A DNA stretch of 64,000 nt from Methanobacteriota archaeon (GTDB taxonomy: Archaea > Halobacteriota > Methanosarcinia > Methanosarcinales > Methanosarcinaceae): NCBI GenBank assembly GCA_016841265.1, contig JAENZL010000005.1, positions 1-64,000 of the forward strand, read 5' to 3'. The stretch's first letter is position 1. Every line of letters starts with the position of its first letter. Under the pieces are notes generated by a model, which had not been told where the DNA came from, searched no databases, and worked only from the letters and a program-made list of their open reading frames with translations. The translations under genes were made by a program, and so were the position numbers. Shown in pieces: positions 9,059-27,380 of this stretch.

Positions 9059-10306
9059 TTACCCTTCCCGCATATTCCTGAGGATTTCCCGGAGAGCCGG
9101 CCTTTTTCCGTACATAAGGAGGTAAGCCCTGAAAAGGCGGCTTGAGAATATGATTACACCGTGGATTGAGATCATCAGGATGAAAAGGCTTGCTGCAATC
9201 TGGTAAAAAGGCACTTCCGTAGCCCCGATCCGGACCAGCATGGCTACAGGAGACGTGATGGGAAAGAGGGAGAGAGAGATGGCGAGGAGGCTGTCGGGTT
9301 TTGTAAGCAGGAGCTGCATGAAAACCAGGGGGGCAGCGGCTGCGAAGGTAAAGATCCCGGCTACCTGCTGGCTTTCCTGGAGGGAGGAGGTCATGGCTCC
9401 AACAGCGGCCATAAGGCTTGCGAAAAAGAGGTAGCCGAATAGGAAATAAACCACAGCCAGGAAGAGCAGGAAGGGGTCCAGGCTCAGAGGAAGGGCATAC
9501 GAGGCCCCGAGAGCGACTGCAGAGATCCAGACCACGATTTGAAGGAGGCCGACTGCACCCAGGCCCAGGACCTTGCCGGTCAGGAGTTCGGTGGGAGTTG
9601 CGGAAGAAAGCAGGACTTCGATGACCCGGTTCTCCTTTTCTTCGGAAACGCCGCGGAGAAGGAATCCTGATGCCGAAAAGATGCTGAAGAAGAGGAGGAA
9701 GGCGGTGAGGAAAGGAAGGCCAAGATCCCCCAGGATATCCGCAACGCCCTGTTCATTGGCTTCTCCTCCCTCCCCGATGTCGAACATCTTAATGTTGACC
9801 GGGTCCTTGACCCTCACGAGCACGGCTTCGTCAACCTCGTCCTGCAGGAGAGAGGTGACAACGATATCGGAAAGGTCTGCCGCAAGATTGGCCCTGGGTA
9901 CTGTAACTCCTTTTTCGGAGACATAAAGTTCGATTACCCCGGTCTCCAGGAAGCCCTCCGGGATTAAGAGATAGGAAGAGATCTCACCGGCCCTGAGCGC
10001 CCGGCTGGCTTCAGGGTTATCCTCGTACCTGACAAACTCTATTGTCGAACTTTTTTCCCCGAAAGGTCCCACCGCAAACCCTCCGTCTGTGACTTCCTCG
10101 GGAAAGTCAAAGGACCCGGTAATGTCTACATAACCTACGCTCTGGTCCTCGGAAGGGGTCATGCCGGCAAGCAGGGCAGGCACAAGGGTGATCCCTGCCA
10201 GAAAGACCGGAAAAATGAAAGTCATGAAAAGGAATTCCTTGCGCTTCACGGTTTTCAGGAACTCGTGCCTGGCAACCGTAAATGCCTTTCCTGAAAATTT
10301 ACTCAT
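9059..10306 (-). CDS. ABC-2 type exporter permease (NatB-like)
   Basis: This is the membrane subunit of an ABC-2 exporter. Residues ~20-42 form the first membrane helix, followed by a large extracytoplasmic domain up to ~residue 205. Then come five or six helices, including LPFLTAFLLFFSIFSASGF and the ABC-2 signature region EEKENRVIEVLLSSATP. This is the NatB/YhaP architecture: one helix, an external domain, then a helix cluster. The start is the ATG at 10306 (MSKFSGKAF). It overlaps the stop of the ATPase gene (ATGAGTAA) and has a GGAGG about ten bases upstream. The substrate is unknown; relatives export sodium, drugs or peptides. Confidence 0.88.
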   Translation of the reverse strand: MSKFSGKAFTVARHEFLKTVKRKEFLFMTFIFPVFLAGITLVPALLAGMTPSEDQSVGYVDITGSFDFPEEVTDGGFAVGPFGEKSSTIEFVRYEDNPEASRALRAGEISSYLLIPEGFLETGVIELYVSEKGVTVPRANLAADLSDIVVTSLLQDEVDEAVLVRVKDPVNIKMFDIGEGGEANEQGVADILGDLGLPFLTAFLLFFSIFSASGFLLRGVSEEKENRVIEVLLSSATPTELLTGKVLGLGAVGLLQIVVWISAVALGASYALPLSLDPFLLFLAVVYFLFGYLFFASLMAAVGAMTSSLQESQQVAGIFTFAAAAPLVFMQLLLTKPDSLLAISLSLFPITSPVAMLVRIGATEVPFYQIAASLFILMISIHGVIIFSSRLFRAYLLMYGKRPALREILRNMREG

Positions 10307-12099: not shown

Positions 12100-12798
12100 A
12101 GTTATACGGATAAGGTATGTACGCAGGCTTTATATCATGTTCGATTTTGTTCTGCTGCATAAAAGAACATTATCGTGTCATTGCTGAATCATTAATGCAG
12201 CCGGGATAATTGCTGAATCATTAATGTAAAAGGGCTCGAAGCGTAAAAGCACGAATTAATGCGGGACATTAGGAGAGAAGAAAGTGAATCAGGTTCTCTG
12301 GCAAGTGCGCAACACGACAGGGATGCCCCATCTTTTCAAATATTTCTAGGAGAAAAGCCGGGAAAAAGGTCAAAATAAACTTTTTAAAGGAAAGCTCATG
12401 GAAGATAATTATAATTCCGTAGTGATCGGATTTTTTACCGCCTCTGGGCCATATTGGGGTAAAAGTCCGGAAATAAAGCCGATATAATCTGTTTATTCCA
12501 CCAGGTTTGGCGTTGTTCCGGAAGGAAATTCCAGGAAAACCTCCATCATGATCATTAGTTACCAATTTTTAGAAAAAAATGCTCAATGAAAAGCTATATA
12601 ATCCGAGGGGATATCAGACGCCCAAACTCCCGGAGAAAAAAAATGCCCGGGAAAGGATATTAACGGTGGAATGTGGATACGATTAAAAGATTCCTTTGTA
12701 TTATATGCAATAGAGAGAACGGTTTCAGGAAAACAGCTTCAGAAGGGTACGGAACTGAAAAACCTGCAAACCCTTCAAAGTCTGGAAAAATATTAGAC
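12100..12798. other. Intergenic region upstream of the hydrogenase-like operon
   Basis: I find no supported gene here. A direct repeat (ATTGCTGAATCATTAATG) occurs twice between about 12180 and 12226. Minus-strand frames in 12269-12565 lack start signals and similarity. Confidence 0.5.
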
Positions 12799-12905
12799 TA
12801 TGCATTTTTAATTACCGGACCCCAGTTTCGGAAATATGCATTTTTAATTACCGGACCAAAGCTCCGGGAATATGCCCATTTAATTGCCGGGCCCCGGCTT
12901 TGGGA
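12799..12905 (+). promoter_or_regulatory. Triplicated 36-base unit containing TATA-like boxes
   Basis: Three tandem units of 36 bases start at 12799, 12835 and 12871. Each contains an archaeal TATA-like element, TTTTTAATTA in the first two and CATTTAATTG in the third, followed by a CCGGACC or GCCGGGCC block. The array ends exactly at the predicted GTG start of the first operon gene. The third box is about 24 bases from that GTG, which would fit a leaderless transcript. The units could also be read as a 12-residue coding repeat, but no supported gene contains them. Confidence 0.6.
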
Positions 12906-14864
12906 GTGAATGGCTTGCTCGAAGCCCTGGTGTACGGCGCTTTTGCCGCACTGTTTTCCGGAACCGTCCTTCCTCTTCTGTACCGCAGTAAAAACGCAAG
13001 AAAGGCCTCCTTTGGCCTATCCTTTATTTCTTCAATCCTGCTCCTGGGTTTTGCAGGGACAATCCTCTACACAGGAAAAGGGGCTCAATTTCCAGCTATC
13101 AGCTTTCTTCCGGGGCTGGACTTCACCCTGGGAGTAGACCGGCTCTCGGCAGGGTTTGTCCTGCTGATTGCAGCAGTCGTGCCCGGGGTCTCAATCTATT
13201 CCCTGGAATACACGGAACACGCAAAAAGTGAAGCAGGAAAAGACCTTCAGGCAGCCCTGACAAACCTCTTCATCCTTGCCATGCTGCTGGTCGTGCTTGC
13301 AGGCAATATGGTGGTTTTCCTCATATTCTGGGAAATCATGTCTCTCTCCTCCCTCCTGCTAGTACTCCATGACTATTCCTCAGAGGAGAACAAAAAAGCA
13401 GGTTTCTTTTACTTCGTGATGACGAACCTGAGCACGGCTTTTCTTTTCCTGGGCTTCATCAGCCTTTTCAGGCTGACCGGCTCTGCCGAATTAGGGCAGC
13501 TCGGACCGGTGGAACCCGGAACCCTGACCCTGCCCTTCCTCTGCCTCTTCACAGGCTTCGGGATCAAGGCAGGACTTGTGCCCTTTCACAAGTGGCTCCC
13601 CTATGCCCACCCTGCAGCCCCTTCGGGGGTCTCGGCTCTCATGTCCGGGGTAATGTTAAAGGTTGCAGTCTACGGCTTCCTGCGCTTCCTGCTTGCAGTT
13701 TCCTCCCCGGAACTATGGTGGGGCATCCTGGTCCTGACCGCAGGCAGCCTTTCAGCCCTTTTCGGGGTAATCTACGCCCTTAAGGAAAGTGACATAAAAA
13801 GGCTGCTTGCCTACAGCAGCATCGAAAATATCGGGATAATCTTCATCGGGATAGGGCTTTACATCATATTCGAAGCCGAAGGGCTCCCTGCCCTTGCCCT
13901 GATGAGCCTTACAGGGGCCTGCTTCCATGCCTTCAACCACGCCCTATTCAAAAGCCTGCTATTCCTCTGTGCAGGTTCGGTGGTCCATGCCACAGGTACC
14001 AGGAACATCGAAGCTTTCGGCGGGCTGGTAAAAAGCATGCCCGTTACCTCAGCCTTTTTCCTGATAGGCTCGGTCTCGATTGCAGCCCTGCCCCCGGCAA
14101 ACGGCTTTGCAGGCGAACTCCTGCTCTACCAGGCCTTTTTCCAGGCATCGGCCCTCAACGACCCCCTGCTCACCGTGCTCCTGGTAATCGCCCTTTCGGG
14201 CTTTGCCCTGGCCGGAGCCCTGGCAGCAGCTCTTTTTGTAAAACTTTTCGGGATCACCTGCCTTGCCCTCCCGCGCTCCGAAGAGAGCCGGCTGGCTAAA
14301 GAAGTCCCTAAACTCATGCTAATCGGGGCAGCCGTGCCTGCAGCTTTCTGCATCCTGGCCGGGCTATTTTCAAAGCAGCTCCTTTCCCTTGCGGGCCTGG
14401 ACGTCGAATACCCGGACCTGCTCCTGCTCGGGCTGCTGCTGGGGCTCATATACGCAGCCCTCTTCCTGGCAGTCCGTGCAAAGGAAAAGAGTGAAAAGGA
14501 AAAGAGACCTGCCCGGACCAGCGAGACCTGGGGCTGTGGGGCTCCCACCCTGACACCTTCCATGGAGTACAGCTCAGCAGGGTTTTCCGAGCCCCTGGTC
14601 ATGATCTTCAAGAGCATATACAGGACCCGGATAGTGCACCGGCCGAAGTATTTCGACGGGCAGGAAAGCCTGTTAAAAAACGGAAATGTGGAAATCCGCC
14701 TGCTCCGCTTCTTTGAAGAATACCTCTACATCCCCCCTGCCCTCGCTATTGAGAACATTTCAAAGCGGGTCTCCAGACTGCAGAACGGCAAGCTTGACAG
14801 CTACCTCCTCTACGCCTTCCTTGCAGTCATTACCCTGATTCTTGTCACGGGGGTCCTCATATGA
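12906..14864 (+). CDS. HyfB/NuoL-like proton-translocating membrane subunit
   Basis: First gene of a six-gene operon related to hydrogenase-4 and complex I. This antiporter-type subunit of about 652 residues has 14 or more predicted helices. The residues thought to carry protons are kept: Glu143 in FWEIMSL, Lys221 in GFGIKAGLVPFHKWLP, and Lys252 in MSGVMLKVAVYG. The long C-terminal part (after ~residue 540, SETWGCGAPT...) is typical of HyfB. The GTG at 12906 immediately follows a triplicated promoter-like array; a TTG at 12900 is an alternative. It overlaps the next gene by four bases (ATGA). In group 4 hydrogenases this subunit couples electron transfer to H+ or Na+ movement; what drives it here is unclear because the redox subunits lack their cofactor ligands. 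Confidence 0.9.
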   Translation: MNGLLEALVYGAFAALFSGTVLPLLYRSKNARKASFGLSFISSILLLGFAGTILYTGKGAQFPAISFLPGLDFTLGVDRLSAGFVLLIAAVVPGVSIYSLEYTEHAKSEAGKDLQAALTNLFILAMLLVVLAGNMVVFLIFWEIMSLSSLLLVLHDYSSEENKKAGFFYFVMTNLSTAFLFLGFISLFRLTGSAELGQLGPVEPGTLTLPFLCLFTGFGIKAGLVPFHKWLPYAHPAAPSGVSALMSGVMLKVAVYGFLRFLLAVSSPELWWGILVLTAGSLSALFGVIYALKESDIKRLLAYSSIENIGIIFIGIGLYIIFEAEGLPALALMSLTGACFHAFNHALFKSLLFLCAGSVVHATGTRNIEAFGGLVKSMPVTSAFFLIGSVSIAALPPANGFAGELLLYQAFFQASALNDPLLTVLLVIALSGFALAGALAAALFVKLFGITCLALPRSEESRLAKEVPKLMLIGAAVPAAFCILAGLFSKQLLSLAGLDVEYPDLLLLGLLLGLIYAALFLAVRAKEKSEKEKRPARTSETWGCGAPTLTPSMEYSSAGFSEPLVMIFKSIYRTRIVHRPKYFDGQESLLKNGNVEIRLLRFFEEYLYIPPALAIENISKRVSRLQNGKLDSYLLYAFLAVITLILVTGVLI

Positions 14865-15802
14865 ATACATCATTCCTGCTCTTTGCCCTGTTAAACCCGG
14901 CTTTTGCCCTGCTGGCAGCCTCCCTCTACATGGCCCTGATCCGGAAGGTAAAGGCCCAGGCCCAGGGGCGGAAAGGCCCGGGGCTCTTCCAGGCATACTA
15001 TGACCTGAGAAAACTCATGCACAAAGAGGTAATTTATTCCCCGGTATCTTCCGGGATCATGCGGTTTACCCCATACCTCAACCTCGCGGCCCTGCTGGTC
15101 TGCTCCCTCTTCGTGCCCCTGGTCTTTGTACCGGAACCGGCGGGAGGGTTCGGGAACGTTATCGTCTTCCTCTACCTCCTTGCCCTGGAACGCTTCTTTA
15201 CAGCCCTTTGCGGGCTTGATGCGGGAAGCGCCTTCGGAGGCATGGGAAGTTCCCGGTCCATGAGCCTGGCAGCTGTTATCGAGCCTACCATGGTGGTGGC
15301 CTTTGCCGCACTTGCCTTTGTCCTGAAGAGCCTGAACCTGCACGAGATGTTCGCCCTGACCGCAGGCTCCCTCCTACCGGTAAGCCCGACCCTTGTCCTG
15401 GTCTCTATTTCCCTCTTCATCATCCTCATCGTGGAGACCGGGAGGCTTCCCGTGGACAACCCGGCAACCCACCTTGAACTCACCATGATCAACGAGGCCA
15501 TGGTCCTGGAACAGTCCGGGAAGAACCTGGCACTCCTGGAGCTTGCCCATGCCCTCAAACAGCTCCTCCTCATGGGGGTCCTGATAAACACGATCCTGCC
15601 AGTGGGACTAAGCACGGAAGCCAACGCCGGAAAAATTGCAGTATCAGCCCTGTCCTTCCTCCTGAAAGCCGGGGCTCTTGCCGTGGTGATCGGGCTCTTT
15701 GAATCTTCCCTTGCAAAAATGCGCCTCTTCAGGCTTCCTGCCTTTTACATGATGGCGTTTTTCTTTTCAGCCCTTACCATCCTTATCGAGGTGTTTGCAT
15801 GA
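14861..15802 (+). CDS. HyfC/NuoH-like membrane anchor subunit
   Basis: This 313-residue membrane protein has eight or so helices and the HyfC/HycD/NuoH signatures. The cytoplasmic loop LERFFTALCGLDAGSAFGG followed by MGSSRSMSLAA is well conserved. So is ETGRLPVDNPATHLELTM, the acidic loop that faces the peripheral arm in the family. It joins the peripheral large and small subunits to the antiporter subunits. Both loops being intact implies that docking of the peripheral arm is under selection even though the arm lacks redox ligands. It overlaps its neighbours by ATGA on both sides. Confidence 0.92.
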   Translation: MNTSFLLFALLNPAFALLAASLYMALIRKVKAQAQGRKGPGLFQAYYDLRKLMHKEVIYSPVSSGIMRFTPYLNLAALLVCSLFVPLVFVPEPAGGFGNVIVFLYLLALERFFTALCGLDAGSAFGGMGSSRSMSLAAVIEPTMVVAFAALAFVLKSLNLHEMFALTAGSLLPVSPTLVLVSISLFIILIVETGRLPVDNPATHLELTMINEAMVLEQSGKNLALLELAHALKQLLLMGVLINTILPVGLSTEANAGKIAVSALSFLLKAGALAVVIGLFESSLAKMRLFRLPAFYMMAFFFSALTILIEVFA

Positions 15803-16485
15803 TTGACCCGCTTTATCTCGAAGGCGTAATCAAGATCCTCTTCGTCTTCGTCCTGATCAGTGCAGCCCTGATCATCTCCACCCGCAGCCTTTCTTCGGTC
15901 CTTAATACCTACACTGTTCAGTCCTTCCTGCTTGCCGCAGTTTCCGTCCTCCTCTACCTGATAGACGGGAAGAGCGAACTCCTGCTGCTGGCAGGGCTGA
16001 CCCTGGCAAGCAAAGTGCTCCTGATCCCCCATTTCATTAACAGGATCGAGGAGAAAATCAAAATCAGGAGAGACCTGGACTTCACCTACCTGGAACCCAC
16101 TACCTCCCTCCTGCTGAGTATAGGCCTTATCCTGCTTTCCTATACCTTCCTTTCCCGGGTCTTCGGGGACCTTGCCCTCTCAAGGCTCTTCTTTTTCGGG
16201 GCGGTCATAGGGCTTTCCCTGACCCTCATGGGCATGCTTGTCATGTTCAGCCGGAAAAAGGTCATTACAAAAGCTCTCGGCTACCTCAGCATGGAAAACG
16301 GAGTCCTGATGTTAGGCATCTTTGTCACGGAACTCCCCTTCATCCTCGAAGTCCTGATTGTAATCGACCTGATAATCCTGGTCCTGCTGACCTCTATCCT
16401 GGCTGTGGGTCTGGACTCGAGCATCGAGGAGTACAGGGCAAAAATAAGGAAACTGCAGATCTGGAACGGAGGTGAAGCCCTGTGA
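15799..16485 (+). CDS. HyfE-like membrane subunit
   Basis: This 228-residue protein has about seven hydrophobic segments. Position, length and motifs (LNTYTVQSFLLAA near the N terminus, LGYLSMENGVLMLGIFVTEL in the second half) match HyfE, the fusion of MrpC/NuoK-like type with extra N-terminal helices in hydrogenase-4. The charged loop RIEEKIKIRRDLDF separates the two halves. It overlaps the upstream gene by four bases and the downstream gene by four (GTGA). Confidence 0.88.
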   Translation: MIDPLYLEGVIKILFVFVLISAALIISTRSLSSVLNTYTVQSFLLAAVSVLLYLIDGKSELLLLAGLTLASKVLLIPHFINRIEEKIKIRRDLDFTYLEPTTSLLLSIGLILLSYTFLSRVFGDLALSRLFFFGAVIGLSLTLMGMLVMFSRKKVITKALGYLSMENGVLMLGIFVTELPFILEVLIVIDLIILVLLTSILAVGLDSSIEEYRAKIRKLQIWNGGEAL

Positions 16486-17972
16486 TTCGATTCTACCTGC
16501 TGGCAATGGGGGCTTTCCTTGCCCTCGGCCTCTTTCCGAAGTCGCACAGGCTCATGAACGCCCTTGCCTCAGGCAATGCCCTGCTGCACCTCGCCCTGAC
16601 CTGCACAGCCCTGCTGACCCTTGACCTGCCTGTCCGGTACGGGCCGTCCCTTTACCTGGACCACCTGAACCTCTATGTAGAACTGATAACGGTCCTTGGT
16701 TTCTGCGCAGCAGCCCCCTATGCAAAAGGGTATACGGAAAGCCTGATGGAAGAGGGGGAACTTGACCCGAAGAACCTGAAACTCTTCTACCTGGCCTTCA
16801 ACCTCCTGCTTGTTACAGCCACAGCAGCGCTTTTCTCGGATAACCTGGCCCTCTTCTGGATCTTTGCCGAACTTACCACGGTCTGTGCAGCCGTGCTCGT
16901 GTCGATCCTCTCGGCACGGGAGAACATTGACGCCGGCATGAAATACGTCTTCATAGTTTCAGGGGCTATGCTCTTTGCCTTCCTGGGGCTGATTTTCCTC
17001 TTCACCCTCTCGGCCAGGGCTCTTGGGGAAGGGACTCTCTCCTGGACAGAACTTATGGAAAACGCTTCGAGCTTTTCCCCTGCCCTCCTCCTTGCAAGCT
17101 TTACCTTCGTCTTCATAGGCTTCGGGGCAAAGGCAGGAATAGCTCCTTTCCACACCTGGCTTCCCGACGCTTATGCACGAGCTCCTTCCGTAAGCGCAAT
17201 CCTCTCGGGGCTCATGCAGAACCTGGGGATCTACGGCATCCTCAGGACCTACGCCCTGCTCAGGGTCAGCGATTCAGCCCCCCAGGCTTCTTTCATCCTT
17301 ATCGCGGCAGGCCTGTTTTCAATTGCCCTTGCGGCGTTCAGCATGCTCCAGCAAAGGAACCTGAAGAGGCTGATCGCCTTTTCAAGTGTCGAGCACATGG
17401 GACTCCTGCTCATAGGAATAGGGATAGGCACTCCCCTTGCCCTTTTCTGGGTCCTCTTCTATATGCTGGTCCACGTCCTGGTAAAAGAAGCCCTGCTCTT
17501 TGCCGCAGGCATCCTGCACAGGCAGTACGGGAGCAACATGCGCGAGGACGTGAGGGACGTGTTCAAACTCCAGCCCCGCGCAGCCTGGACCCTGATCCTG
17601 GGGAGTGTCGCAATCGTCGGTATGCCGCCTTTCCCCCTCTTCCCGGCAAAATTTTTCATCTTGCTGGAAAGCGCGGAAGTTTCCCCCTACCTGACCCTGG
17701 CAATCCTGCTCCTGCTCATCCTGGCAGCCGCATCCTTCTCAAACTTCCTGTTAAAAGCCTTCTCAAAGGTTACCGAAGAAGGAGAAGAAAAAGGAGAAGG
17801 AAAAGAAACGGGATACCGGAAAAAAAGCTTTCATGACCCCTATGTTGTAAGAGCAGGGATGAGGATTCCCACAGTCTTCATGCTCGCCCTTGCCCTCCTC
17901 CTGGGCATCTGGTTCCCGGAACCACTCAGGGTGCTCCTTGAAGCGATAGTCCTTGAACTGGGATATGTGTAA
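16482..17972 (+). CDS. HyfF/MrpD-like proton-translocating membrane subunit
   Basis: This is the second antiporter-type subunit, 496 residues with a GTG start overlapping the previous stop. Glu130 (WIFAELTT) and Lys217 (GFGAKAGIAPFHTWLPDAY) are kept, as is a His-rich pairing region (VEHMG, LVHVLVKEA). At the TM8-equivalent position it has SGLMQNLGIYG rather than a Lys, as in HyfF and several MrpD-like proteins. A Lys/Glu-rich loop (about residues 426-447) near the C terminus is not typical. Together with the HyfB-like protein it gives two candidate ion paths per complex. Confidence 0.9.
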   Translation: MIRFYLLAMGAFLALGLFPKSHRLMNALASGNALLHLALTCTALLTLDLPVRYGPSLYLDHLNLYVELITVLGFCAAAPYAKGYTESLMEEGELDPKNLKLFYLAFNLLLVTATAALFSDNLALFWIFAELTTVCAAVLVSILSARENIDAGMKYVFIVSGAMLFAFLGLIFLFTLSARALGEGTLSWTELMENASSFSPALLLASFTFVFIGFGAKAGIAPFHTWLPDAYARAPSVSAILSGLMQNLGIYGILRTYALLRVSDSAPQASFILIAAGLFSIALAAFSMLQQRNLKRLIAFSSVEHMGLLLIGIGIGTPLALFWVLFYMLVHVLVKEALLFAAGILHRQYGSNMREDVRDVFKLQPRAAWTLILGSVAIVGMPPFPLFPAKFFILLESAEVSPYLTLAILLLLILAAASFSNFLLKAFSKVTEEGEEKGEGKETGYRKKSFHDPYVVRAGMRIPTVFMLALALLLGIWFPEPLRVLLEAIVLELGYV

Positions 17973-17985
17973 GGAGACGGTGCGT

Positions 17986-19818
17986 ATGGATATGAAAAAG
18001 AATAACGATATAATGGATTTGCTTTCAGAAATTTCGGAAATGACGGGAGAAGAGCCCGAAATACTCAACGCTCGCGCAGACGAGGCCTATGTCCGGCTCT
18101 CCGAAGCCGGGTTTGAAAGGGCAGCCTTAGCCCTTGCGAAACAGCAGTTCAGCCTCATCGGGCTATTCTGCGCGGAAGCCTTTGAGAAAGAGGACGGATT
18201 TACCCTCTTTTATGCCTTCAAACAGGCAGGGAGGGCACCTGTCCTCGTCCTGGTGCGGGAAGCCGGCAGGGAAGAAAAAGTGTCTTCGGTTGCGGAAAGC
18301 TTCCCTTCGGCCTCCTGGTTCGAACGGGAAGTCAGAGACGGCTTCGGGCTTGAGTTTACCGGGGCTTTTGACACAAGACGGCTCTTCCTGCACGAGTGCT
18401 ACCCCAAAGGTTTCCACCCCTTGCGAAAGGCCTTCAAAAACGGTCCTCTGCCCCTCCGGGAAACTGAAGCCGGAACAACTAAAGTAGGATCAAACGAAGC
18501 CAGAACAACTAAAGTAGGATCAAACGAAGCCGGAGCAGCTGAAGCCGGAGCAGCTGAAGCCGGAGCAGCTGAAGCCGGAACAACTAAAGTAGGATCAAAC
18601 GAAGTCGGGACAAATGAAGTCGGGAAGCCCGGAGAAGAATACCGGTTCAGGCAGCTGAAAGGAGAAGGCGTCTACCAGGTCCCGGTAGGGCCGGTACATG
18701 CCGGGATCATTGAGCCCGGACACTTCAGGTTCAGCGTTATAGGCGAGCCCATCTTCAGCCTGGAAATCCGGCTCTTTTACAAGCACAGGGGCATCGAAAA
18801 ACTGGCAGAGGGTAAAAGCCCTTCCGAATGCGTTGCTCTTGCCGAAGCCATAAGCGGGGACGAAAGCGCGGCAAATGCTGTGGGGTTCTGCACGGCCGTG
18901 GAAAGGGCCTGTGGGATTCCGGTGCCAGAAAGGGCAGAATGCCTGCGGGCCGTACTGCTGGAACTCGAAAGGGTCTACTCTCTCCTGGGCGACCTTGCGG
19001 GCATGGCTGTGGACGTTGGTTTTTCCCTGGTGGCAAGCCCCTTCTTAATTCTCAGGGAAGAAATGTTCAGGCAAAACGAGAAACTCACAGGTTCAAGGTT
19101 CCTGCGGGGGATGATGATGCCCGGAGGGCTGAAAAAAGACATCCCGTATTCGGCTTTGAAAGAGCTGGCTCCTTTCTTCGCAAAGTTTTCCCGGACTTTC
19201 GAATCGGCTTTCGAACGGGCAATGTCCTCATCCTCCCTGATCGACAGGTTCGCAACTACAGGCGTGGTAAAAAAAGGACTTGTCGTACCCCTCAACCTCA
19301 CAGGCCCTCTGGCAAAAGCCTCGGGCTGCCCTGCCGATACCAGGCTTAACAGGCCTTATGGGGCCTACGGGTACTTTGCTCCGGGACCTTCCGTAAGGAA
19401 AGGAGGGGATGTGCTCTCCCGTTATGAGGTAAAAGCTGACGAGATAAGGGAATCTCTGAAGCTCATCGACCGCCTCTTAGAAGAAATGCCTGAAGGCCCC
19501 GTGTTTGCAGGAAATACCCTCGCGGAAGGCGAAGAAGCCGGGCCCGGCAGTTTAAGCACTTCCGGTACTTCCGGCGATTCCGGTACTTCCAGCACTTCCG
19601 GAATTTCCGGTTATGCCCTGACCCTGGTAGAAGCCCCGAGAGGGCAGAACCTGCACTGGGTCTACCTGAAAAACGGGCTTGTCGACCGCTACAAGGTAAG
19701 GACCGCCTCCTTTTGTAACTGGCAGGCCATCGAACATGCGGTCCTCGGGAACATCATTCCTGACTTTCCCGTTATCAACAAGAGCCTGAACATGTCATAT
19801 GCAGGGACCGACCTTTGA
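17986..19818 (+). CDS. HyfG/HycE-like large subunit without NiFe ligands
   Basis: This is a fusion of a NuoC-like domain (residues ~1-150, with SASWFEREVRDGFGLEF and HPLRKAF) and a hydrogenase-large/NuoD-like domain (from ~residue 215). In active group 4 hydrogenases two Cys pairs bind NiFe, in the motifs RxCGxC and DPCxxC. Here the first reads AISGDES (Ser290, Glu293, and Asn297 for the usual His). The second reads NKSLNMS (Ser600, Met603). No Ni site is possible. Two low-complexity linkers are inserted: a repeat rich in TKVGSNEAG and AAEAG between the domains, and a Ser/Thr/Gly repeat at ~residues 525-542. The ATG at 17986 has GGAG nine bases upstream. The loss of the first Cys pair fits Ehr-type (energy-converting-hydrogenase-related) proteins. 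Its partner has also lost its Fe-S ligands. Confidence 0.9.
   Translation: MDMKKNNDIMDLLSEISEMTGEEPEILNARADEAYVRLSEAGFERAALALAKQQFSLIGLFCAEAFEKEDGFTLFYAFKQAGRAPVLVLVREAGREEKVSSVAESFPSASWFEREVRDGFGLEFTGAFDTRRLFLHECYPKGFHPLRKAFKNGPLPLRETEAGTTKVGSNEARTTKVGSNEAGAAEAGAAEAGAAEAGTTKVGSNEVGTNEVGKPGEEYRFRQLKGEGVYQVPVGPVHAGIIEPGHFRFSVIGEPIFSLEIRLFYKHRGIEKLAEGKSPSECVALAEAISGDESAANAVGFCTAVERACGIPVPERAECLRAVLLELERVYSLLGDLAGMAVDVGFSLVASPFLILREEMFRQNEKLTGSRFLRGMMMPGGLKKDIPYSALKELAPFFAKFSRTFESAFERAMSSSSLIDRFATTGVVKKGLVVPLNLTGPLAKASGCPADTRLNRPYGAYGYFAPGPSVRKGGDVLSRYEVKADEIRESLKLIDRLLEEMPEGPVFAGNTLAEGEEAGPGSLSTSGTSGDSGTSSTSGISGYALTLVEAPRGQNLHWVYLKNGLVDRYKVRTASFCNWQAIEHAVLGNIIPDFPVINKSLNMSYAGTDL
18466..18630 (+). 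repeat. In-frame minisatellite in the large-subunit gene
   Basis: Alternating units encoding TTKVGSNEAG and GAAEA, several copies nearly identical at DNA level. The repeat forms a flexible linker between the NuoC-like and NuoD-like domains. Confidence 0.85.
19549..19611 (+). repeat. Short in-frame Ser/Thr/Gly-coding repeat
   Basis: Repeats of about nine bases around TCCGGTACT and TTCCGG encode alternating S, G, T. They lie in a probable surface loop of the large subunit. Confidence 0.75.
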
Positions 19819-19904
19819 GCAAAAGTGCCTTTGAAAGCAGAGATGCCCGTGAACAAAGAGATTAACACGGAAAAAAAAATCAAGAAATGCAGTGAGGTCT
19901 GAGA

Positions 19905-20417
19905 ATGATAAAACCGCTTTCCCTTTTCCTCCGTCCGAAGGTGACGGAGACTTTTGAATTCCGGGATGAGGAACTCGAAACCCTGGGGTCCGAAATAAAA
20001 AAAGAAATGCCTAAAGTCTTCGGACGCAGCCTGGCAATCCGCGAATTGGACTCGGGCAGTGATAATTCCACGGAAATAGAGATCTCAAACCTGGGAACCC
20101 CGTACTACGACGTAGAAAGGTTCGGAATCTCCTTTGTAGCATCCCCACGGCACGCCGACGTCCTGCTGGTAACCGGGGCAGTCACCCTGAACATGGCCGA
20201 AGCCGTGAAAAAGACCTATGAAGCCATGCCTTCCCCTAAATTCGTTGTCGCAGTCGGAGACGATGCCTGTAACGGGGGGATCTATAAAGGTTCCTACGCA
20301 GTGCTGGGAGGAGTCGACAAGATCCTGCCCGTAGACATGAGAATTCCCGGAAACCCCCCTTCTCCAAAAGAGATTTTGAAAGGATTGCTTGCACTCCTCA
20401 AAAAGGCTTCCGAGTAA
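19905..20417 (+). CDS. HyfI/NuoB-like small subunit lacking all Fe-S ligands
   Basis: This 170-residue protein follows the NuoB/HyfI fold closely: YYDVERFGISF, ASPRHADVLLVTGAVT, MPSPKFVVAVGD, GVDKILPVDMRIPG. In the family four Cys hold the [4Fe-4S] cluster next to NiFe or quinone (GSCNGCEIE, GxCA, PGCPP). Here the aligned residues are Asp53 and Thr56 (GSDNSTEIE), Asp120 (VGDDACNGG) and Asn150 (PGNPPSP). All four are replaced while the surroundings are conserved. Cys122 is kept but is not a family ligand. The gene starts 86 bases after the large subunit and has GAGGT upstream. The pattern argues against random decay, because the frame is intact and the substitutions fall on ligands. It is the main reason to call the complex redox-silent. 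Confidence 0.9.
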   Translation: MIKPLSLFLRPKVTETFEFRDEELETLGSEIKKEMPKVFGRSLAIRELDSGSDNSTEIEISNLGTPYYDVERFGISFVASPRHADVLLVTGAVTLNMAEAVKKTYEAMPSPKFVVAVGDDACNGGIYKGSYAVLGGVDKILPVDMRIPGNPPSPKEILKGLLALLKKASE

Positions 20418-21558: not shown

Positions 21559-22341
21559 ATGAAAGTTTCACTTATTGATCTGGCATTTCTTTCAGAAAAA
21601 AGAACAAATGTTTTGCTCCTTCTGGAAGAGGGGCCAAAAACCAGCGACGAGATAAAAACAGCCCTGAACGTTAGCTCGACGTCGATTATGCCCCAGATAA
21701 AGAAATTAAAAGAAGGTCACATGATCACCCAGGAAAGCGACAGGTACCAGCTCTCGGAAATGGGAGAGATAGTTGTCGAAAAGATGGAACCCCTTTTAAA
21801 TACAGTGAGGGTTTTCGAAGAAAATTACGATTACTGGGTAAACCACGACCTGAGCGCAATTCCTGAGAACCTTCTAAACAGGATCGAAGAACTGGGAAAC
21901 TATTTCCTGCTCGAACCCGACCTTAACAGGCTCTTTGAAGTGCCTGAAGACTTTAAGATAAACCTCCTGGAATCCAGACGTGTCATGACATTTCTTTCTT
22001 ATTTCCACCCCCTCTATCTTAACCTGTATTCCGAACTGGCACGAAAAGGAGCTGAAATGTGCCTCATCCTGACCGAACCTGTCTTTGAAAGAATGAAAAA
22101 AGACTACACAGAAGACCTCCAGGAACTTCTGGATTTCAAAAACGCGAAAATTTACATTTGCGGTGAGAAAATAACCCTGAAAAACGTTGTAACAGACCGC
22201 TTCTGTTCACTGGTACTCTTTGACAGAAAGGGGAAATTCGACCACCAGCGCCTGATGAGCTTTGACGAAAGTGCGCTGGAATGGTGTGAAGAACTCTTCA
22301 ATCATTACAGAGATAGGTCTATACCCCTTGAAAAACTCTGA
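21559..22341 (+). CDS. Msr/FilR1-type transcriptional regulator
   Basis: This is a 260-residue member of the methanogen regulator family that contains the Msr proteins. It has an N-terminal ArsR-like winged helix (residues ~1-75: DLAFLSEKRTNVLLLLEEG and SSTSIMPQIKKLKEGHMI). A FilR1-type middle/C-terminal domain follows (DYWVNHDLSAIPENLLNRI, LLEPDLNRLFEVP, and the terminal ESALEWCEELFNHY). Msr proteins control methanol or methylsulfide methyltransferase genes in M. acetivorans. This one is not next to any methyltransferase gene; its nearest intact neighbour is a receiver protein. The ATG has GGGGAGGT upstream. Target unknown. Confidence 0.85.
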   Translation: MKVSLIDLAFLSEKRTNVLLLLEEGPKTSDEIKTALNVSSTSIMPQIKKLKEGHMITQESDRYQLSEMGEIVVEKMEPLLNTVRVFEENYDYWVNHDLSAIPENLLNRIEELGNYFLLEPDLNRLFEVPEDFKINLLESRRVMTFLSYFHPLYLNLYSELARKGAEMCLILTEPVFERMKKDYTEDLQELLDFKNAKIYICGEKITLKNVVTDRFCSLVLFDRKGKFDHQRLMSFDESALEWCEELFNHYRDRSIPLEKL

Positions 22342-24062: not shown

Positions 24063-26915
24063 TCACCACCGGAACAAGCGAGAAACCCAGCCCACGTTCT
24101 TTCTGAGAGCGTACTTCCTGAGTTCGTCAACTGCAAGAAGGAAGATGGCAAAGGGAAGAGCTAGCAGCAGGTATTTGAAGTCAATTGGAGAGGTATTGAA
24201 AATCAGGTTGGCAAGGGGGCTCCAGATAATAAAGGAAAGGATGAGAAGCTCGCTTACAATACCTGCCAGAACATACCGGTTTTTGAAAATACCTTTGGTG
24301 AAGACCGACTGTAGCCGGGTCCTGGAGGTGAAGACGTTTGCAATCTGGCAGATAATCACCGCCGAAAAAAAAGCCGTAATCGACTGCATGTAGAGGGGAT
24401 TACTGTTTGCAAGCTGTTCCCCGAAACTCCAGCCCCCGCCGAAAAGGACGGCAAAGTAGCAGAAAAAACCGGCAGCTGCCTCTATGGGCCCTTTTATTCC
24501 GTAAGAAGTAAAAAGCACCTGGGATGTAAGCAGTTTTTCGTCCCTGGACCTGGGAGGCCGCCTCATAATATCTCCCTCTCCCTTTTCCACACCCAGGGCA
24601 AGGGCAGGCAGGATATCGGTCCCCAGGTCAATTGCCAGGATGAGCTGCACGTTCATAGGGAGAGGCAGGGCGAAGAGGACAAAGGCGATAAAAGGCAGGA
24701 TTTCCGGGATATTGCTGGTAAGGATGTAAGCAATAAACTTTTTGATGTTATCAAAGACGGTCCTGCCCTCTTCCACAGCCTTCACTATGGTGGCAAAGTT
24801 GTCGTCCAGAAGCACCATGTCCGCAGCTTCCCTGGCAACATCGGTGCCGCTCCCCATGGCAACCCCCATATCCGCATTCTTGATTGCGGGGGCATCGTTG
24901 ACCCCGTCTCCGGTCATGGTGACGATTTCCCCCTCTGCCTGAAAGAGTTGCACGATTTTCAGTTTCTGTACGGGGGAGGTCCGGGCAAAGACTATACTCT
25001 TCTTTTTCAAACGCTTCGCAAGTTCTTCTCTGGAAAGAGCTTTCAGCTCGTCACCCGTGATTATTTCCAGAGCTTCGGAATCCGAAAGCCCCACATTCCG
25101 GGCAATGGACTCTGCAGTTACGGGGTGGTCCCCTGTAATCATGACGACCTTGATCCCCGCAGCATGGCACTTTGCAATAGCCCCTTTTGCTTCGGGGCGC
25201 GGAGGGTCCACAATCCCGATGAAACCCAGGAAAACGAAACCTTCAGTATACTCTTCCAGCTTTTCCGCTTCCCTGTAAGCAAGAGCTATCACCCGCTCTC
25301 CCCTCTCCGCCATCTTCAGGTGCCGGTCCAGCAGTTCTTCTTTCTCCCTTCTGCTAAGTTCCCTCACCCCTTCGGCCTCAATTAGGGAATCGCACATCTC
25401 AACCACAATTTCCGGAGCCCCTTTGAGGTAAGATTCAAGCCCGCCTTCGGGAGTACGGCAGAGGACTTCCATCCGCTTGGTAAGAGAATCAAACGGGAAT
25501 TCCTCCAGCCGGGGATAATTAACGTTGAGTTCCTTCAGGTCCGTAAAGCCGTTTGCAAAGACCAGGAGGGCTCCTTCGGTGGGGTCTCCCGTATATCCCG
25601 GAGCCCTTTCCGAAAACCTCGCATTGTTGCAGAGCCCGGCGACCCGCAGGAAAACAGGAGGAATCTTTTCAGGGTCCCAGCCAGGACCCTGCAGCCCTTC
25701 CCCGGAAATCACCTCTTCCCCCACAGGCATTTCTCCGGTGTTCATACCTGCTTCCTGCCCTGCTGCTTCCTGCCCTGCCGCGTCCTCTGCGGAACCTTCA
25801 GGGTCTTCAGGGTCTACATCTTCATACCCGATGATGAGGGAGTGAACAGCCATTTTGTTCTGGGTCAGGGTCCCTGTCTTATCCGTACAGATAACCGTGG
25901 TCGAACCCAGGGTTTCCACGGACTCGAGCTGTTTTATCAGGGCTTTTCTGTCGGCCATCCGGCGGGAGGCCAGGCTAAGGGCAAGGGTAACTGTTGGCAG
26001 GAGCCCTTCAGGTACATTGGCGACGATGATCCCGATGGAAAAAATAAGGCTCGCAAGGAAGATATCCTGGAGGAAAAAGGCAAGCAGAAAAAAAGTTACC
26101 CCGAGGAAAATCGCTATTGAAGAAATTACCTTTATGAAATGGTTGAGTTCCTTCCGGATAGGAGTGTCCACGGTTGAGGTCTGTTCGGTCAGGGTAGCCA
26201 GGTTCCCGATCTGGGTATGTGCTCCTGTCCCGAACACGATAGCTTTTCCGTTTCCGCTCTGCACCAGGGTTCCGGAAAAAACCATGTTCCTGCACTCCAG
26301 CATTTCCGGATGAGTGCAATTAAGAGAACGCAACTGCGGTTCGGCTTCCCCGGTCAGAGCGGAATTGTCTACTTTCAGGGAATTGGCTTCTATCAAACGC
26401 CCGTCTGCCGGGACCTTGTCCCCTTCTTCAAGAAGGATAACGTCCCCGACAACCAGTTCCAAAGCCAGGACGTCAAGGACCACCCCTTCCCTTAAAACCC
26501 TTGCATGGGGCGGGATAAGCTGCCGGAAGCTTTCCATGGTCTTTTCGGCCTGGTACTCCTGGATAAAAGTAAAGGTCCCGTTCAGGACGACGACACCCCC
26601 GAGAGCTACCCCTATATATAGATTACCCTGCCCGGGGTCCAGGTACTCGGCTAAGAAGGAGAGAAGGGCTCCTATGGCCAGCAGAATGGAAAAGAAATTT
26701 CGGAATTGCCGGAAGTATTTCCGGGCTATGCTTTCTTTTTCCGTATCTTCCAGGACATTGGGACCGCAGTCCTGCAAGCGGCGGGCAGCTTCCCGTCCTA
26801 TGAGCCCGTTTTCAGCTGTCCCGAACCTCTCCAGGAATTCCGGGAGGGGAATCCTGTGTTCATCACCCCGGGGAGAGCACAAAGCTTCCCTGTCTACAGC
26901 CGCTGTCGACTCCAT
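24063..26915 (-). CDS. P2-type cation-transporting ATPase (Na+/K+-ATPase-like)
   Basis: This protein of about 950 residues has all P-type ATPase landmarks: actuator loop LTGEAEP, phosphorylation site DKTGTLT (Asp345), KGAPE in the nucleotide domain, TGDHPVTA, and the hinge TGDGVNDAPAIK. Ion-site helices read NVPEGLLPTVT (M4), SNIPEILPF (M5) and DLGTDILPAL (M6). That resembles P2C Na+/K+-ATPases more than SERCA-type Ca2+ pumps (PEGLP, NIGEV, NLVTD). An acidic Ala/Gly/Gln-rich insert of about 45 residues follows the phosphorylation site and looks like repeat expansion. I chose an ATG at 26915, which has GGGGG just upstream and a TATA-like box about 30 bases further. Transport of Na+, K+ or H+ is inference. 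Confidence 0.88.
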   Translation of the reverse strand: MESTAAVDREALCSPRGDEHRIPLPEFLERFGTAENGLIGREAARRLQDCGPNVLEDTEKESIARKYFRQFRNFFSILLAIGALLSFLAEYLDPGQGNLYIGVALGGVVVLNGTFTFIQEYQAEKTMESFRQLIPPHARVLREGVVLDVLALELVVGDVILLEEGDKVPADGRLIEANSLKVDNSALTGEAEPQLRSLNCTHPEMLECRNMVFSGTLVQSGNGKAIVFGTGAHTQIGNLATLTEQTSTVDTPIRKELNHFIKVISSIAIFLGVTFFLLAFFLQDIFLASLIFSIGIIVANVPEGLLPTVTLALSLASRRMADRKALIKQLESVETLGSTTVICTDKTGTLTQNKMAVHSLIIGYEDVDPEDPEGSAEDAAGQEAAGQEAGMNTGEMPVGEEVISGEGLQGPGWDPEKIPPVFLRVAGLCNNARFSERAPGYTGDPTEGALLVFANGFTDLKELNVNYPRLEEFPFDSLTKRMEVLCRTPEGGLESYLKGAPEIVVEMCDSLIEAEGVRELSRREKEELLDRHLKMAERGERVIALAYREAEKLEEYTEGFVFLGFIGIVDPPRPEAKGAIAKCHAAGIKVVMITGDHPVTAESIARNVGLSDSEALEIITGDELKALSREELAKRLKKKSIVFARTSPVQKLKIVQLFQAEGEIVTMTGDGVNDAPAIKNADMGVAMGSGTDVAREAADMVLLDDNFATIVKAVEEGRTVFDNIKKFIAYILTSNIPEILPFIAFVLFALPLPMNVQLILAIDLGTDILPALALGVEKGEGDIMRRPPRSRDEKLLTSQVLFTSYGIKGPIEAAAGFFCYFAVLFGGGWSFGEQLANSNPLYMQSITAFFSAVIICQIANVFTSRTRLQSVFTKGIFKNRYVLAGIVSELLILSFIIWSPLANLIFNTSPIDFKYLLLALPFAIFLLAVDELRKYALRKNVGWVSRLFRW

Positions 26916-27380
26916 CATACCCCCTATATTCAATGCCGCATAGACATATAAGCTTGACATTTCGAAGAGAAGAGGGTAGGAGCTTGAAATGCCCTGGTAG
27001 GCGGGTCAAAAATTTTCACCGCATTTATCAGAAACAGGGCAAAAAAAAATTCCCGTCAATTATGTTTTATAATTTGCTAACGAAAAAATAATCCCTACTC
27101 AATGCAAAAATAGAGGGTTTGAGAATTTATTTTACGCTCAGGTTCTCAGCCCTGTGCAAGCGAACATGAAAAGGAGTTGCATAAAGCTTTGTCCTGCTCC
27201 TTTTCCCCTACATATATTTTATGGTTTTTAATAATGTTTGAGGACTCAGGAGTCTAAAAGCCCTGAGTATGAAACATTTTGGATTGAAAAGGTCTATATA
27301 ATATCGTACAGTAGAAAATAAAATTGTAAATATAATAAAATAAATGTAATAAGAAATAAATAAAAAAGGTATGACCGATT
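26916..27380 (+). promoter_or_regulatory. Upstream region and promoter of mtaA
   Basis: An AT-rich region without a gene. A strong TATA element (TCTATATAATA) lies at about 27293-27303, predicting a start near 27325 and a leader of about 55 bases that is very A/T-rich and poor in structure. GGT about ten bases before the ATG is the only weak ribosome-binding signal. Confidence 0.6.

Follow-up and report, generated by a model that had tools for sequence, protein, structure and literature searches.

It has long been asked how events in the redox pocket of complex I drive ion movement in the distant membrane arm. A relative found in nature that has the coupling machinery but no electron path separates these two parts and is a natural test of redox-free working. 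Among the systems that resemble the operon described here are the Ehr (Ech hydrogenase-related) complexes, and the founding accounts of the Geobacter sulfurreducens Ehr are reportedly those of Coppi 2005 and Marreiros 2013, as credited in citing papers. In the excerpts consulted, Ehr complexes are described as having no NiFe ligands and an unknown function (PMC6349859, PMC10284858, PMC4378227, PMC10432482, PMC6147122, PMC7304191), and HydDB classes Ehr as a non-hydrogenase family (PMC5037454). Excerpts of two further papers show that the Geobacter Ehr was termed "nonfunctional" solely for its inability to oxidise H2 (PMC13194489) and that its subunits are abundant on formate by proteomics (PMC7894505). 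The ligands of the small-subunit cluster are not part of the Ehr definition in the portions of the literature consulted. An Ehr small subunit that lacks the cluster cysteines is described nowhere in the excerpts searched, the founding texts of Coppi 2005 and Marreiros 2013 being outside the search, and this silence does not establish priority.

Ehr complexes and the present operon share complex-I-type membrane subunits, a HyfE-like subunit, and a large subunit without NiFe CxxC pairs, and many Ehr operons also have no ferredoxin subunit. However, most Ehr examined keep the four proximal-cluster cysteines (the Geobacter small subunit is outside this set), whereas the clade studied here features Asp/x/Asp/Asn. 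Formate hydrogenlyase (FHL) and hydrogenase 4, which belong to group 4a [NiFe], have the same subunit types and folds, and the large subunit finds its best structural match in HycE; the operon differs from them in lacking a NiFe site, a proximal cluster, HyfA/HyfH, and a HyfD counterpart. Among the matches listed, MbhJ from the P. furiosus MBH (6cfw) matches the small subunit best in sequence and superposes on it most tightly, although MBH itself genuinely evolves H2 and has its full set of metal centres. The Mrp cation/proton antiporters share the antiporter-like subunits and transport ions without redox chemistry, as the present complex may also do. Mrp consists of membrane subunits only, with no soluble arm and no NuoH-, NuoB-, or NuoD-type subunits, whereas the operon has NuoB- and NuoCD-type subunits. 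Respiratory complex I and Fpo have the NuoH E-channel and the NuoB and NuoCD folds in common with the operon, but the complex encoded here features neither N2 nor other clusters and has no NADH/F420H2 module.

Organization of the Operon

The window is the whole stretch of 64,000 nucleotides that was analysed. It contains six open ORFs on one strand, none of which is interrupted (Table 1), with 4-base overlaps at the B/C, C/E, and E/F junctions. The Pfam families are Proton_antipo_M (B and F), NADHdh (C), HyfE-like (E), Complex1_30kDa and Complex1_49kDa (G), and Oxidored_q6 (I). They are concordant with the NCBIfam assignments, and the HyfB-, C-, E-, F-, G-, and I-like set proposed in a first-pass annotation of this DNA is confirmed. 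That annotation placed the operon at 12906–20417; the six genes stand, and the HyfB ORF is given here from the TTG at 12900, where the earlier annotation used the GTG at 12906. As in Ehr, a membrane arm of NuoL/M-, NuoH-, and HyfE-type subunits is encoded in one cluster with soluble NuoCD- and NuoB-type subunits. The ORF of the large subunit opens at 17953, and the ATG at 17986 is the likelier start; the residue numbers given below for this subunit (S301, E304, S615, and G618) follow the ORF numbering from 17953. The large subunit also features two repetitive low-complexity linkers, which are shorter in most relatives and are predicted by AlphaFold to be disordered.

A second, distinct 49-kDa-type protein is encoded on contig C1 of the same genome and is taken to be FpoD. 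The FilR1-type regulator downstream of the operon is kept in 11 Methanosarcina-type loci. The putative P-type cation ATPase-like gene near the operon, in which DKTGT and TGDGVNDAPA motifs were recognised by eye, also occurs in related loci.

Table 1. Features of the operon and its surroundings (window coordinates)
Feature	Position	Strand	Remarks
HyfB/NuoL-type antiporter-like subunit (B)	12900..14864	+	654 aa from TTG 12900; NCBIfam PRK08667 "hydrogenase membrane subunit"
HyfC/NuoH-type subunit (C)	14861..15802	+	313 aa; charged E-channel and docking residues
HyfE-type membrane subunit (E)	15799..16485	+	228 aa
HyfF/NuoM-N-type antiporter-like subunit (F)	16482..17972	+	496 aa, GTG start; NCBIfam PRK08676
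HyfG/NuoCD-type large subunit (G)	17986..19818	+	610 aa from ATG 17986
Low-complexity linkers of G	18469-18631; 19528-19594		
HyfI/NuoB-type small subunit (I)	19905..20417	+	170 aa
FilR1-type regulator	21559-22341	+	
P-type cation ATPase-like gene (putative)	24063-26960	-	

Missing Metal Sites

The proximal [4Fe-4S] ligands, which are found in most Ehr examined, are absent from the small subunit. The alignment reveals D53, T56, D120, and N150 in the columns that hold four cysteines in sister proteins, in agreement with the first-pass reading that all four ligands are gone, and the sole cysteine of the protein is C122. The N2 cluster ligands that characterize the NuoB-type subunit of complex I are lacking. 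In the large subunit, the first NiFe pair is replaced by S301/E304 (SGDES instead of CGIC), residues that had been correctly identified as Ser290/Glu293 in the numbering used earlier. Alignment with E. coli HycE (7z0s_E) places the DPCxxC motif over S615/G618 (SYAG instead of CYSC). For this second pair the loss of the cysteines had been recognised, but Ser600/Met603 lie four residues early, and the HycE alignment points to Ser604/Gly607. The large subunit features neither the RxCGxC nor the DPCxxC motif of group 4 [NiFe] hydrogenases, and in this it is like Ehr. It keeps H249 in the beta1-beta2 loop and the canopy arginine, R563. The ferredoxin-like subunit(s) of group 4 hydrogenase operons have no counterpart; a ferredoxin-type Cys motif was found in no frame of window 1–30000, which bears out the reported absence of a HyfA/HyfH subunit. 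The sequence gives good support to the absence of an encoded internal electron path.

Membrane Arm

The operon retains the NuoH-type E-channel and the antiporter-like subunits that characterize complex I. E145, K223, K300, H347, and K351 of B are invariant in 53 homologues, and K254, which was K252 in the earlier numbering, is Lys in 49 of the 53. F features four invariant residues, E130, K217, K295, and K335 (54 homologues), and in C the residues D120, E141, E192, D199, E206, E212, and E227 are invariant (52 homologues). Glu143, Lys221, and Lys252 of the HyfB-like subunit and Glu130 and Lys217 of the HyfF-like subunit had been described as intact, and in the 52–54 homologues they prove to be invariant or, for Lys252, nearly invariant. 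The docking loops of the HyfC-like subunit had been described in the same way, which agrees with the invariance of its charged E-channel/docking residues.

Distribution of the Cys-Less Small Subunit

The homologue sample from the window's phylum consisted of 394 genomes, 39 of which had a match at E <= 1e-36, and the 32 matches at about 60% identity or above are all without cluster cysteines. The same was found for the 12 closest matches in 251 genomes from the phylum of a Dehalococcoidales MAG and for the 2 closest matches in 250 genomes from the phylum of a Bathyarchaeota MAG. An Asp/x/Asp-or-Glu/Asn-or-Asp set replaces the cysteines in 46/46 (32 + 12 + 2) of the sampled genomes that have a close homologue, among them archaea and Chloroflexota, and the Cys-less state noted at Asp53/Thr56/Asp120/Asn150 is thus kept in all of them. 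Position 53 is Asp, position 120 is Asp or Glu, and position 150 is Asn and rarely Asp. The residue at position 56 varies among Thr, Ala, Pro, and Val, so that no ligand is possible there in many members. D53, D119, D120, and N150 are almost invariant. A chance substitution or a sequencing error is ruled out, as cluster cysteines occur in 0/46 genomes.

The Cys-less set is also present in named records of Methanosarcina, Methanoregula, Bathyarchaeota, Woesearchaeota, Altiarchaeales, and Dehalococcoidia. Confinement of this form to Methanosarcina is ruled out by the matches from the Bathyarchaeota and Dehalococcoidales phyla. PRK08667 was above the cut-off in exactly 1 of 14 control genomes, which include M. 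acetivorans. The genes are absent from several species of the family and are therefore dispensable in those species, which counts against the function preferred below.

Phylogeny and Order of Loss

Trees were built from G and I with the ligand columns taken out. The clade of the window is essentially one branch of Methanobacteriota, Bathyarchaeota, Woesearchaeota, Altiarchaeales, and Chloroflexota, with a modest support of 56 in the first tree and 95 in the second; it is placed beside two long-branched Aquificota rows, and this placement is unsure. One locus of the clade, L222, has Asp rather than Asn at position 150. Relatives outside the clade have the cysteines, so the Cys-less state is derived. 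The first-pass annotation considered that relatives with the Cys ligands would speak against it; such relatives are present as sisters outside the clade, and none is found among the 46 close homologues. The broader tree requires five changes between Cys and non-Cys, four of which are forced by well-supported branches (SH-aLRT only). In at least two other lineages the cluster ligands disappeared independently, and there too acidic residues took their place. Retention of the small-subunit cluster, which the first-pass annotation attributed to Ehr complexes, is seen in the proteobacterial, deltaproteobacterial-phylum (L187–L200), Bathyarchaeota, and Methanosarcinales-order homologues that were examined; those of the Scalindua, Parcubacteria, and L102 type do not show it. 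Other bacterial Ehr-like small subunits (L088, L092, L093, L094, and L102) have T/D/S, C/E, D/G/A, and D at the ligand columns, and in L088, L093, L094, and L102 the small-subunit gene is located ahead of the other operon genes.

The operons examined can be arranged by the metal sites that they retain, and the resulting series describes states found in living organisms and does not prove a historical sequence. Every NiFe hydrogenase operon has the NiFe cysteines, the cluster, and an adjacent ferredoxin gene, and every Cys-bearing relative from the order has the cluster and ferredoxin and no NiFe cysteines. Most proteobacterial Ehr keep the cluster with no adjacent ferredoxin, which reveals that the absence of ferredoxin is not unusual. 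The window clade features no NiFe cysteines, no cluster ligands, and no ferredoxin gene within the Cys-less operons. A single-motif ferredoxin-like frame lies about 1.1 kb downstream of one Cys-less locus, L221, and this counts against the preferred reading.

The nearest cluster-bearing sisters are Bathyarchaeota-side proteins with a fused and eroding ferredoxin domain. The sister loci L248–L252, from the phylum of a Bathyarchaeota MAG, feature the cluster cysteines, a large subunit with SGDE..N, and a ferredoxin domain that is fused and has partly eroded; they look like an intermediate state. As L248–L252 retain the cluster, the SGDE..N signature did not originate with cluster loss, and a joint origin of E304/N308 and cluster loss is ruled out; this, too, weighs against the preferred reading. 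The loci L239–L244 (larger loci L266–L271), from the phylum of a Dehalococcoidales MAG, have NiFe-type cysteines at both large-subunit pairs, with CGAC in 5/6 and CAAC in L240. Their small subunit features a fused ferredoxin domain and replaced cluster ligands (SDN / GDEA or GTDA / GDPP or GSPP). A NiFe site without a proximal cluster would be odd. A fixed pairing of ferredoxin loss with cluster loss is ruled out, since L239–L244 retain the fused ferredoxin and proteobacterial Ehr retain the cluster without ferredoxin.

Selection and Fold

The dN/dS values (Nei-Gojobori, against five relatives) are 0.03–0.25 across the genes and are lowest in the small subunit, 0.03–0.09, which indicates strong purifying selection. 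Together with the intact frames, these values answer the earlier concern about frameshifts and relaxed selection. AlphaFold models were made of single subunits, one at a time. The small subunit has a pLDDT of 92.5, and Foldseek matched it to MbhJ (6cfw_J) with an rmsd of 1.8 Å over 133 columns. The large subunit has a pLDDT of 83.6, with its low-confidence regions in linkers and ends, and a Foldseek TM of 0.88 (target-normalised) to HycE (7z0s_E). Both soluble subunits are thus predicted to keep their folds. A pseudogene is ruled out by the dN/dS and pLDDT values.

Proposed Function

The operon is best explained, with a probability of about one half, as a cofactor-free Ehr subclass that is probably a proton or cation translocator gated at the former redox pocket. 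H+ and/or Na+ would be moved through B, C, and F in an Mrp-antiporter-like manner, with no electrons entering the peripheral arm. The former G/I pocket would consist of S301-G-D-E304, N308, H249, and R563 together with D53, D119, D120, and N150. The pocket may bind a non-redox ligand or cation, or may hold a fixed negative charge at the old cluster site, a proposal based on the acidic residues, which are conserved at this place and arose separately in other lineages. The state of the pocket might then set the conformation of the G/I/C interface, which could open, close, or bias ion movement. Somewhat less probable is a machine wholly without redox chemistry, in which a ligand or cation in the old pocket would drive or gate a complete complex-I membrane arm. 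An ion-translocating machine with a peripheral arm free of electrons was also the first-pass proposal, and it is supported in part, by the absence of an encoded carrier and by the intact membrane machinery; the complex itself might be ligand-gated, a channel, an antiporter, or served by an outside donor.

The strongest alternative, which is nevertheless unlikely, is that the complex is still redox-driven and that a soluble donor encoded elsewhere (e.g., a flavoprotein, F420H2, or NAD(P)H) feeds electrons or hydride directly to a substrate in the pocket. The retained H249 and R563 are proton-handling pocket residues of complex I and FHL, for the FHL of E. coli the role of the beta1-beta2 loop as a proton donor has been emphasized (PMC9474812), and external formate dehydrogenase partners were proposed for other Ehr complexes (PMC6349859). 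However, no conserved candidate partner gene was found beside the operons in the neighbourhoods compared, the loss of the proximal cluster leaves no surface-to-pocket relay, and the hosts, from methanogens to Dehalococcoidia, would have no obvious small carrier in common.

It is less likely still that the Asp/Asp/Asn set binds metal, either in an Fe-S cluster ligated without cysteine or in a mononuclear site for Fe, Zn, Mg, or Ca. The near-invariance of D53, D119, D120, and N150 at the former cluster location and the change from Cys to acidic residues in separate lineages are consistent with such a site, but the T, A, P, or V at position 56 argues against it, and cluster binding without any Cys is not known to have a precedent. 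If the metal were redox-active, the complex would not be redox-free; a redox-inert hard-metal site is compatible with the gated translocator as well. Also improbable is a structural or assembly module, or an exchange of subunits with the Fpo or Mrp of the same cell, in place of a stand-alone transporter. Further genes of the 49-kDa, NuoB, and antiporter-like types do occur in this genome, but across phyla the full B-C-E-F-G-I set stays together, also in hosts whose partner complexes differ. A decaying hydrogenase relic, which the successive-loss states among relatives and the deleted copies might suggest, is very improbable given the low dN/dS, the invariant replacement residues, the intact frames, and the well-folded models.

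The gated translocator would mean that at least two classes with distinct functions are united under the Ehr label. This six-gene relative of complex I, in which the redox metal sites are gone and the ion machinery is intact and under selection, is shared by many methanogens and some bacteria. Methanosarcina acetivorans, an archaeon amenable to genetic work, appears to carry the operon, so that deletion and vesicle assays would be feasible.

Gene Turnover in the Genus

In genome G001 the neighbourhood is syntenic, with 81–88% DNA identity, and features a deletion scar in which window position 12269 is joined directly to 20136 (L053 ~9749–9755), leaving 282 bp of the small-subunit gene. This genome has a divergent intact operon on another contig. 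Remnants of 195 bp from a second operon type are present in the window's own genome, where the remnant is related to the divergent operon type of G001, and in the congener (L052 4209–4401; L054 8445–8638). Two operon types once coexisted in the genus, and each of the two compared genomes still carries one of them undamaged, an indication that the function is maintained.
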